From NCBI GenBank assembly GCA_006226595.1, contig SBGP01000031.1, forward strand, positions 1 to 64,000: a DNA stretch of 64,000 nucleotides, written 5' to 3'. Positions 5,404-37,217 of the stretch are shown here, one piece after another. This DNA comes from Deltaproteobacteria bacterium. GTDB taxonomy: Bacteria > Myxococcota_A > UBA796 > GCA-2862545. The notes below the pieces were generated by a model, which saw only the letters and a program-made list of their open reading frames with translations, made no database searches and had not been told where the DNA came from. Made by a program: the position numbers and the translations under genes. Position 1 is the stretch's first letter. The number at the start of each line of letters is the position of its first letter.

Positions 5404-6158
5404 TGAGCCGACGCCTCCATGGCGCCGTCGTGCCCGTGAGCGGGCTGTCCTCGCAGGACCGCGACGCGATGTTCACGCTGTTCGCGACCTACTACGCGGA
5501 CGTGACCCGCGCGCGCTTCGACATGGACCTGGCCGCGAAGGACGACGTGATCGTGCTGCGCGACGAGCGCGGCCTGCAGGGGTTCTCGACGCTGAAGTGT
5601 CTGCGCATCGAGCACGAGGGCCGCGCCCACTACGGCGTGTTCTCGGGCGACACCGTCGTCCACGAGGACCACTGGGGCACCAAGGTCCTCGGCAAGGTGT
5701 TCCTGCGCTACCTGTTCGTGCAGCGGCTCAAGCGCCCGTGGGCCCCGCTGTGGTGGTTCCTGATCTCGAAGGGCTACAAGACCTACCTGCTCATGGCCAA
5801 CAACTTCCCGGAGCACTGGCCGCGCTACGAGCAGCCGACTCCGGCGACGCGCCAGGCGCTCCTCGACGCCTTCGCGAGCCAGGCCTTTCCCGAGTGCTAC
5901 GACGCGTCCACCGGGCTCATCCGCTTCCCTGCGGAGAGCGGTCGCCTCAAGCAGGGCGTGGCCCCGGCGACCGAGGCGCTGATCGCTGAGAACCCGCGCA
6001 TCGCCTTCTTCATCGACAAGAACGCCGAGTGGGCCGACGGGGTCGAGCTCGCGTGCATCGCGTCGATGAGCTGGTCGATGCCCGTGCGCTACGCGCTCAA
6101 GCACCTGCGGGACCGGCTGCGCCCCGTGGCCGCCCCCACCCCGGCGAGGAGCACCTGA
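5403..6158 (+). CDS. Uncharacterised protein, possibly GNAT-like acyltransferase
   Basis: I do not recognise this 251-residue protein with confidence. The central part has the flow of an N-acyltransferase fold: a strand with LQGFSTLKCLRI, a segment FSGDTVVHEDHWG, and a helix-strand unit ending FLISKGYKTYLLM. That order of beta strands and a charged turn resembles GNAT proteins, but no clear acetyl-CoA P-loop (Q/RxxGxG/A) is visible. It has no signal peptide and few Cys. It is joined to the Rieske genes on both sides by one-base TGATG overlaps, so it is almost certainly part of the same pathway. Candidate roles are acylation of an amine intermediate or a scaffold function; both are guesses. 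Confidence 0.7.
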   Translation: MSRRLHGAVVPVSGLSSQDRDAMFTLFATYYADVTRARFDMDLAAKDDVIVLRDERGLQGFSTLKCLRIEHEGRAHYGVFSGDTVVHEDHWGTKVLGKVFLRYLFVQRLKRPWAPLWWFLISKGYKTYLLMANNFPEHWPRYEQPTPATRQALLDAFASQAFPECYDASTGLIRFPAESGRLKQGVAPATEALIAENPRIAFFIDKNAEWADGVELACIASMSWSMPVRYALKHLRDRLRPVAAPTPARST

Positions 6159-7063
6159 TGGCCGAGCTTCCCGTCGACGCCGGACTGGGCATGGACTGGG
6201 CCGACGGCCCCCTGCGCGCCCTGCTCGACAAGCGACTCGGCGCCCGCGCCATCCACGCGCCCGTGGACCTCGAGTCCGTGTGGAAGCCCGCGCACTACGG
6301 CCTCGACCGGGTGCAGGCCTGGACCGAGGCCGACGACGACGTACGACGCGCCGTGCTCGCGGACTGCGCCCGCGCGAGCCTGCTCGAGGCCTACTTCATC
6401 GAGAAGGCCGGGGTCGCGTACGCGGCGAAGATGACGCTGCTCGCCGAGAGCGCCGACGAGCGCAGCCTGTACGCGCTGTTCGCCGCCGAGGAGGCCACCC
6501 ACCTCGACGCCATCAAGCAGGCTCTCGGCCCCGTGGACGAGCAGCAGTGGCAGGCGAACCCCTTCCTCACGCTGCTCCGCGACATCGTCGAGGAAGCCGA
6601 CCGCGCCACCGGCCAGCTCGTGATCCAGGTCGTGCTCGAGGGCTGGGGGCTCGTCCACTACGCCGGCCTGCGCGACGCCTGCCAGGACCGGGACCTGCAG
6701 CGCCTGCTCGCGCGCATCGTCGCCGACGAGGCAGGCCACCACGGCTCCGGCGTGCACCTGCTCCGCGGCGTGTCCTTCGCGGGAGCCCAGCGCCGCGCGG
6801 CCGTCGACCAGCTCGGCCACATGCTCGCGATGGTCCAGGTCGGCCCAGCCCTCGTCGCCGGCAGCCTCGAGCGCCACCTCGGCGGATTCACCCGCGACCA
6901 GCGCCTGCGCGTGTACCGCGAGCTCGACGCCGAGCAGCACATCCGCGAGCGACTCGCCAAGCTCGGCGCCTGCCTCGACAAGGTGCCTGGCGCCGCCGTC
7001 GTCGCCGAGGACCTCACCGCCGCCGGGCGGTTCACCATCCCCGCCGTGGAGGCCCTGGCATGA
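6158..7063 (+). CDS. Ferritin-like di-iron protein
   Basis: The 301-residue all-helical protein carries the paired metal motifs of ferritin-like di-iron enzymes. A Glu lies in the EAYFIEKAG helix near residue 75. E112-x2-H115 is in FAAEEATHLD, E161 is in VVLEGWGLVHY, and E191-x2-H194 is in DEAGHHGSG. This Glu, ExxH, Glu, ExxH pattern predicts an oxygen-activating di-iron centre rather than iron storage, which would need a shorter 24-mer subunit. No signal peptide is seen. It lies directly before the AurF-like oxygenase with a four-base overlap, so the two could act in sequence on one substrate. The exact reaction (hydroxylation, desaturation or N-oxygenation) cannot be told from sequence alone. 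Confidence 0.82.
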   Translation: MAELPVDAGLGMDWADGPLRALLDKRLGARAIHAPVDLESVWKPAHYGLDRVQAWTEADDDVRRAVLADCARASLLEAYFIEKAGVAYAAKMTLLAESADERSLYALFAAEEATHLDAIKQALGPVDEQQWQANPFLTLLRDIVEEADRATGQLVIQVVLEGWGLVHYAGLRDACQDRDLQRLLARIVADEAGHHGSGVHLLRGVSFAGAQRRAAVDQLGHMLAMVQVGPALVAGSLERHLGGFTRDQRLRVYRELDAEQHIRERLAKLGACLDKVPGAAVVAEDLTAAGRFTIPAVEALA

Positions 7064-36242: not shown

Positions 36243-36328
36243 GCCGCATGGCGCGTTGATCCGACGCGCCGGCTAGGGCATGATAGGTCTGTTCCAAGCG
36301 CCCCTCCTCGGCGCAAGCGGAGTGCGAC

Positions 36329-37171
36329 ATGGCCAAGCTCGAAGATCCCTGGGGCAACTACCACTTCACCCTCGAACTCGATGGCACCGAGGTCGGGCGG
36401 TTCATGGAGTGCTCGGGACTGAAGTCCACCGCCGAGGTCTTCGAGATCGAGGAGGGCGGCTTCAACGGCGGCAAGCGCAAGGTCGTCGGCCGCAGCAAGT
36501 GGGACAACATCGTCCTCAAGTTCGCGACCTCGGCGTCGACCGCGCTCGTCGAGTGGCGAGACAAGTACCTGCAGGACCAGTTCACCGATCGCGCCAACAC
36601 GACCGGCTGCGTCGTCGTGCGCGACAACGCCGGCGAAGAGCTGCGTCGCTACAACTTCGTCGGCTGCTGGCCGGTGTCGTGGGAGGGCCCGTCGTTCAAC
36701 TCCGGCGGCTCCGACCTCGCGATCGAGTCCCTCGAGATCGCCCACGAGGGCATCTACATCGACGGCGCCAAGCCGCCGCCGCCGCAGACGGCCCAGCCGC
36801 TGCCCGAGAAGCTCGAGACCCCGCCGGTCCAGTTCGAGTACGACTCCGACGTGCTCACCGACGACGGTGAGGACGTGGTCGACGACGTTGCGGATCAGCT
36901 GGAGGATCACCCCGAGGTCGAGGTGATCTACATCGAGGGTCACGCGAGCAGCGAGGGCAGCGACGCGTACAACCTCAAGCTCTCCCAGGAGCGTGCCGAC
37001 GCCGTGAAGGCGCGCATGGAGAAGCAGAACCCGAACGTGAAGTACATCGCGATCGGCTACGGCGAGTCCCACCCGGTCGCCTCGAACTCCACCGAGGCCG
37101 GGCGCTCCCAGAACCGCCGCGTCGAGTTCTGGCAGACCCCGCGCTCGGGCAAGCGCCCGGGCGAGCTCTAG
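36329..37171 (+). CDS. Contractile-tail tube protein (gp19-like) fused to OmpA C-terminal domain
   Basis: The 280-residue protein joins two domains. Residues 1-150 match the tail-tube family of phages and extracellular contractile injection systems (T4 gp19-like): DPWGNYHFTLELDGTEVGRF, CSGLKSTAEV, GGFNGGKRKVVGRSKW and WRDKYLQD. After a Pro-rich linker, residues 170-270 are an OmpA-like peptidoglycan-binding domain with IEGHASSEGSDAYNLKLSQERA, IGYGESHP and the end NRRVEFW. No signal peptide is visible. No sheath, baseplate or other tail gene is nearby. Tail tubes form hexameric rings, so this could be a ring-forming cell-wall protein or the lone remnant of a system coded elsewhere. Confidence 0.85.
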   Translation: MAKLEDPWGNYHFTLELDGTEVGRFMECSGLKSTAEVFEIEEGGFNGGKRKVVGRSKWDNIVLKFATSASTALVEWRDKYLQDQFTDRANTTGCVVVRDNAGEELRRYNFVGCWPVSWEGPSFNSGGSDLAIESLEIAHEGIYIDGAKPPPPQTAQPLPEKLETPPVQFEYDSDVLTDDGEDVVDDVADQLEDHPEVEVIYIEGHASSEGSDAYNLKLSQERADAVKARMEKQNPNVKYIAIGYGESHPVASNSTEAGRSQNRRVEFWQTPRSGKRPGEL

Positions 37172-37194: not shown

Positions 37195-37212
37195 ACCGAC
37201 AGAGAACTGTCG
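37195..37212. terminator. Short perfect hairpin after the tail-tube/OmpA gene
   Basis: CCGACAG-AGAA-CTGTCGG is a seven-base stem with a tetraloop, 24 bases after the stop. It has no T run. It could end the upstream transcript or serve as an operator for the grpE gene. Confidence 0.5.
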
Positions 37213-37217
37213 GCACG

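Follow-up and report, generated by a model that had tools for sequence, protein, structure and literature searches.

The gene analyzed here lies at positions 36329 to 37171 on the plus strand of a 64,000-nucleotide stretch of DNA from a Deltaproteobacteria bacterium, hereafter called the window; all features located below by window positions are on the same strand. Reading of the sequence showed a single open frame with an ATG start and zero internal stops, and a likely ribosome-binding site, GGAG (36319 to 36322), was read directly 6 nt 5′ of the ATG. The predicted protein of 280 residues is composed of a gp19-type tail-tube domain (residues 10 to 142; 36356 to 36754), a flexible proline-rich linker (residues about 146 to 163; 36764 to 36817), and an OmpA-like domain (residues 169 to 263; 36833 to 37117). 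Both domains had been proposed in an initial annotation made from the sequence alone, and they were confirmed by profile searches. The tube half matched the whole of the Pfam family Phage_T4_gp19 (PF06841; 109.2 bits, cut-off 28.2) and the NCBIfam model TIGR02241 (97.6 bits, cut-off 62.4), and the C-terminal half matched the Pfam OmpA family (PF00691; 68 bits, cut-off 27.2). The AlphaFold model (mean pLDDT 83, pTM 0.48) displayed two confident domains with a loose linker between them (about residues 145 to 165), in which pLDDT was below 70 and whose length differed among aligned homologues. In Foldseek searches with this model, one half retrieved tube chains of contractile injection systems (CIS) and the other OmpA/Pal domains. 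VIA-align comparisons of the OmpA half with OmpA, Pal, and TagL domains gave Z scores of about 14 to 17, with a maximum of 16.8.

The protein begins with MAKLEDPWGNYHF, and neither a signal peptide nor a lipobox is visible in the sequence read directly. CIS tube proteins are assembled in the cytoplasm, so that the lack of a signal peptide, which the initial annotation held in need of explanation, is unremarkable; none is expected.

Downstream of the gene, a perfect 7-bp inverted repeat, CCGACAG-AGAA-CTGTCGG (37196 to 37213), was read directly in the interval that separates it from grpE-dnaJ. The repeat is not followed by a T run and its fold z score is −1.8; it may be the terminator of the fusion gene or an operator of grpE and the chaperone genes. 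No promoter or terminator match was found.

Distribution and origin of the fusion

Full-length homologues with both domains, which the initial annotation had proposed to look for, were found in seven other genomes among 58 that comprised the window's own and its relatives, with identities of 45 to 72%. Querying the genome contigs with the single protein retrieved zero relatives, whereas querying them with an alignment retrieved all seven. Those relatives whose records bear names are listed under Proteobacteria or Deltaproteobacteria and are metagenome-assembled genomes. All carriers belong to one family of uncultivated bacteria, in which they represent 8 of 21 species and five genera. With a profile of the eight fusions, run against 71 genomes of the class and a phylum sample of 379, the members scored E values below 1e-129, and the next match was a single tube protein at 8e-73. 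The phylum-wide search of those 379 genomes, in which a few candidates per genome were scored at first pass, detected no fusion beyond the eight, and no full-length relative was found in phage, plasmid, and IMG/VR searches. Apparent extra fusions at L126, L127, and L134 were rejected, as they correspond to adjacent, separate tube genes.

We considered that the fusion might be an artefact of assembly or frameshift, as the initial annotation had cautioned, or a decaying gene. There is no frameshift or assembly join at the linker (36770 to 36840), since the joint is the same in eight separate assemblies, each with the full-length protein. Between the two closest fusion species, the tube half had a dN/dS of 0.20 and the OmpA half one of 0.52; the corresponding values were 0.22 for tube A and 0.07 for tube B of the extracellular contractile injection system (eCIS; see below) and 0.17 to 0.42 for ordinary OmpA domains. 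This comparison is rough, owing to extensive change at silent sites and to possible non-orthology within the ordinary OmpA pairs. The tube half is under purifying selection. Together with the open frame and the grouping of the fused OmpA halves described below, these observations make an artefact or a decaying gene extremely improbable, and we found zero points that speak for it.

In a tree with 34 ordinary OmpA domains, the fused OmpA halves formed one clade with a support of 100/97. The tube halves clustered together as well, and a single clade was not rejected for them (p-AU 0.18). The single clade of OmpA halves and the clustering of the tube halves imply one origin of the fusion followed by long retention. 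Repeated fusion, in which the tube halves would group with tube B of their own genomes, was rejected on the same trees.

The neighbors of the fusion gene mostly differ between genera, and the locus is thus that of a stand-alone gene. It lies outside the eCIS cluster in every carrier with sufficient flanks; the G015 contig is only 5.3 kb long. The sole gp19-type match on the contig is the fusion itself, in agreement with the earlier remark that no other tail gene is near. groES-groEL, grpE, and dnaJ, which lie next to the fusion gene, were considered as functional partners and rejected because this neighborhood is not conserved.

Two orphan tube genes without an OmpA part, L083:3541-4014 in G011 and L084 at about 5983-6435 in G020, code for proteins placed near the fusion clade. 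In G020, the convergent neighbor of this gene (L084:6419-8524) ends in an OmpA domain, although not one closely related to those of the fusions. This arrangement is a possible picture of the state that preceded the fusion.

Relationship to the eCIS of the host

Following the suggestion to look for contractile-injection gene sets elsewhere in the genome, we found an eCIS on two other contigs, C87 and C98. The former codes for a Pvc16-like protein, sheath A, tube A, sheath B, and tube B, and the latter for a Cis7-type tube-plus-LysM protein, a spike hub, gp25, and baseplate J-like and Tail_P2_I proteins. The Cis7-type protein of this genome (L156:11946-13145) matched PF19266 and PF01476 in Pfam. 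A conserved 303-residue protein of the eCIS cluster, found at L156:3505-4413 and L044:16084-16992 (both on the minus strand), matches the ubiquitin-like YukD family just at the cut-off and, at its C terminus, a RING finger weakly and below threshold.

The tube half of the fusion shares about 70% identity with tube B of its own eCIS and about 36% with tube A. eCIS tube B has 52 conserved residues, of which 34 to 49 are kept in the fusions and 27 in tube A. By sequence, tube B is the nearest relative of the tube half in the genome, and the two are paralogues. Most carriers have retained tube B as well, so that the fusion represents an additional copy. The eCIS hub gene is present in all eight fusion genomes, but it occurs in 17 of the 21 species of the family, which makes this co-occurrence weak evidence when taken alone (about 0.12 by chance). 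The sheath A of the family was detected in six of the eight; it was not seen in G015 and G019, in which the hub was, perhaps because these assemblies are fragmented. Tube A itself is on a separate contig in G003, G010, and G013. Since eCIS tube genes thus occur outside the main cluster elsewhere too, there is nothing unusual in this family about a tube gene standing alone.

We then asked which ring of the particle the fusion resembles. The best PDB chain was 9gtp_a for both the fusion (E value, 3e-16) and tube B (2e-16). The main tube chain 8bl4_v scored 0.006 with the fusion and was absent from the tube B matches at 0.001, and the PDB chains nearest to tube A were main tubes (7b5h_AN and 7adz_1a). 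9gtp_a is a six-copy chain of the Streptomyces coelicolor baseplate, a structure that also contains the 8bl4_v chain in 36 copies. In the S. coelicolor CIS, the tube is separated from the spike by two initiator layers, Cis1b and Cis7 (PMC12237407). By exclusion, 9gtp_a is most likely the tube initiator Cis1b, as the main tube is separately present in 9gtp. In G013, tube B is located between sheath B and the genes for Cis7, the hub, and gp25. This arrangement, with tube B following sheath B and preceding Cis7, hub, and gp25, is that of an afp5-type initiator, and in G008 a tube of this type is even joined directly to a hub domain. Wherever its flanks are long enough to judge, the fusion gene has no such cluster position before cis7-cis8, which its paralogue tube B has. 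In NCBIfam, the fusion scored higher with the CIS5 than with the CIS1 model yet below the CIS5 cut-off, and tube A likewise favored CIS5. Because these models fail to tell tube A and tube B apart, the initiator assignment is based on the PDB ranking and gene order, which indicate that the fusion and tube B are probably baseplate-near initiators of the Cis5/Cis1b class.

In G010 and G013, the fusion and tube B carry a common N-terminal extension that is specific to each genome. Between the two proteins, the extension is 93% identical in G010 (pS 0.68, pN 0.045), compared with 56% for the tube domain (pN 0.31); the values for G013 are 79% (pS 0.76, pN 0.144) and 58% (pN 0.32), and this evidence comes from short stretches of 73 and 42 codons in the two genomes. 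Recent gene conversion was rejected as the source of the common extensions, as silent sites are saturated in extension and tube alike (pS 0.61 to 0.76). Saturated silent sites combined with low pN argue that the extension copies are old and have been held by selection. This is best explained if the fusion and tube B bind one common partner in these two genomes, and no other observation hints as strongly that the fusion may work in the same particle as tube B. Long low-complexity repeats at the N terminus are frequent among the eCIS tube B proteins of this order (L094 and L078 in G010, L082 and L075 in G013, L086, L097, L101, L112, and others). They are of the types GRGGGR-QPTI, YNPG, and PGRGPNSNH, and strong purifying selection acted on them in both of the cases analyzed.

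The OmpA domain and its ligand pocket

In ordinary OmpA domains, diaminopimelate is bound by an Asp and an Arg, which in Acinetobacter baumannii are Asp271 and Arg286 (PMC5974059). Our own alignment placed these residues in the GHTD and LSxxRA motifs. In the window, the Asp position is occupied by Ser207 (36947 to 36949), GHTD being changed to GHAS, and the second ligand-binding residue is conserved as Arg222 of LSxxRA (36992 to 36994). Cys replaces the Asp in six of the eight fusions (GHTC) and Ser in one, that of the window, and the Asp is present only in the G013 member. In contrast, 33 of 34 ordinary OmpA domains of this and related genomes kept it. The fused domains represent one clade and therefore eight members rather than eight independent events. 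N215, LS, R222, and NRR are invariant in all eight. Judging from these residues, the ligand pocket of the fused domains is kept but changed.

In the same genome, the OmpA domain of a large protein at L061 (C16:24758-25045) also has GHAS for GHTD, and the loss of the Asp is thus not unique to the fusion. That large protein has no known tie to the eCIS.

Possible roles of the fusion

The most plausible reading of the fusion ring is that of a paralogue of a baseplate-near tube ring in the host's own eCIS rather than of a stand-alone tail. We infer that the protein forms a ring, occupies an initiator position, belongs to the particle, and has a role in docking, and we give an even chance to the fusion being an extra or alternative initiator of the Cis5/Cis1b class that equips the eCIS with an OmpA docking collar. 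The protein would be made in the cytoplasm, as are other CIS tube proteins, and its tube half would most likely join or replace the ring by which the spike hub is connected with the tube. The baseplate neck might then be surrounded by as many as six OmpA heads on flexible linkers. A C-terminal head that projects from an initiator ring has a precedent in the LysM domain of Alg7 (PMC8894135). As a docking collar, the OmpA heads could contact the baseplate wedges or an envelope ligand, the latter once the particle has arrived at a cell envelope or penetrates it.

The missing signal peptide fits this proposal and also the following three alternatives. The OmpA domain could be purely structural and bind no ligand beyond the particle; it would then reinforce or take over the attachment of Cis7 to the wedges through LysM. 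In AlgoCIS, the LysM domain of the initiator Alg7 reaches outwards to the peripheral baseplate wedges and contacts them (PMC8894135). In addition, the genome has a Cis7 built of tube and LysM, and the replaced Asp is consistent with lost peptidoglycan binding. However, the invariance of the other pocket residues would not be needed in a mere scaffold, and the eCIS already possesses both tube B and Cis7; we regard a purely structural role as possible, if somewhat unlikely. In the proposal of the initial annotation, the tube ring would bind peptidoglycan through OmpA, fixing the tube or the whole particle in the wall, for example, for firing outwards through the envelope of its maker or into the periplasm of a target. 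Part of this proposal stands, since the fold, the Arg, and most other pocket residues are kept, the best structural neighbors are peptidoglycan-binding domains including TagL and TssL of the type VI secretion system (T6SS), and the G013 member retains the Asp. Nevertheless, loss of the Asp in seven of the eight fusions, faster evolution of the OmpA half than of the tube half, and the fact that a cytoplasmic protein would reach the wall only after firing or lysis all weaken it. Moreover, in the close precedent of Alg7 the LysM domain contacts the baseplate wedges rather than the wall (PMC8894135), and we consider a wall anchor unlikely.

The ring might also carry the OmpA domain as a fused passenger for delivery to the target, as C-terminally extended Hcp does. 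Cargo carried by tubes and extended Hcp proteins have been described in type VI secretion (PMC8262886), and an orphan gene location is common for cargo. However, OmpA domains are binders rather than toxins, the fusion has no second enzymatic domain and no conserved neighbor such as an immunity gene, and large passengers jam Hcp tubes (PMC8262886). A cargo role is therefore very unlikely in our view.

As regards known systems, the Cis5/Cis1b rings (Afp5, Pvc5, Alg5, and S. coelicolor Cis1b) share the gp19-type fold of about 140 to 150 residues, have no signal peptide, just as none is visible in the fusion, and include the best sequence and structure matches of the fusion (9gtp_a and 7aeb_Y). 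In contrast to the fusion, which continues into OmpA, they end after the tube domain; moreover, the fusion gene lies outside the cluster and is extra to the normal copy. The closest precedent is found in Cis7-type initiators of the Alg7 class, which are also baseplate-near and also consist of a tube, a linker, and a C-terminal domain of wall-binding type, but they belong to the CIS_tube family (PF19266) and carry LysM (PF01476) in place of OmpA. C-terminally extended Hcp proteins similarly combine a tube with an extra domain in optional extra copies; their extensions are mostly toxins, however, whereas the fusion joins an eCIS tube to a domain of binding type. In T6SS, OmpA domains fix the contractile machine to the wall, but TagL and TssL are membrane proteins with a periplasmic OmpA, while the fusion carries it on a tube protein with no visible export signal and a replaced Asp. 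A search of open-licence papers for tube and OmpA in CIS returned nothing relevant, in line with the initial statement that no described example is known, and the main text of two eCIS surveys does not mention OmpA. The parts are known, but an OmpA domain on an initiator-type ring appears to be undescribed.

To our knowledge, the docking of eCIS and cytoplasmic CIS to envelopes is mostly unknown. Firing of the S. coelicolor CIS requires a separate membrane protein, CisA (PMC12237407). An initiator with its own domain of wall-binding type would be a built-in docking part, and the sequence data suggest that the OmpA fusion might be such an optional extra for docking an injection machine. More speculatively, the optional ring could turn a free-floating eCIS into an envelope-docked machine, its OmpA collar holding the tube at the wall with a changed ligand choice, as TagL and TssL do in type VI secretion but with the anchor built into the tube itself; we find this extended version doubtful. 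The replaced Asp gives a clear prediction of ligand change, and the optional distribution of the eight members provides natural pairs with and without the fusion. Even a purely structural role would still indicate that initiator rings acquire foreign heads, as also suggested by LysM on Cis7 and by a tube-hub fusion in a related genome. The latter (L080:1124-2929 in G008) is located inside an eCIS cluster and combines a tube of this type with a spike-hub domain (Phage_GPD). It adjoins a separate, normal hub gene and joins a hexameric ring protein to a hub that is normally trimeric.
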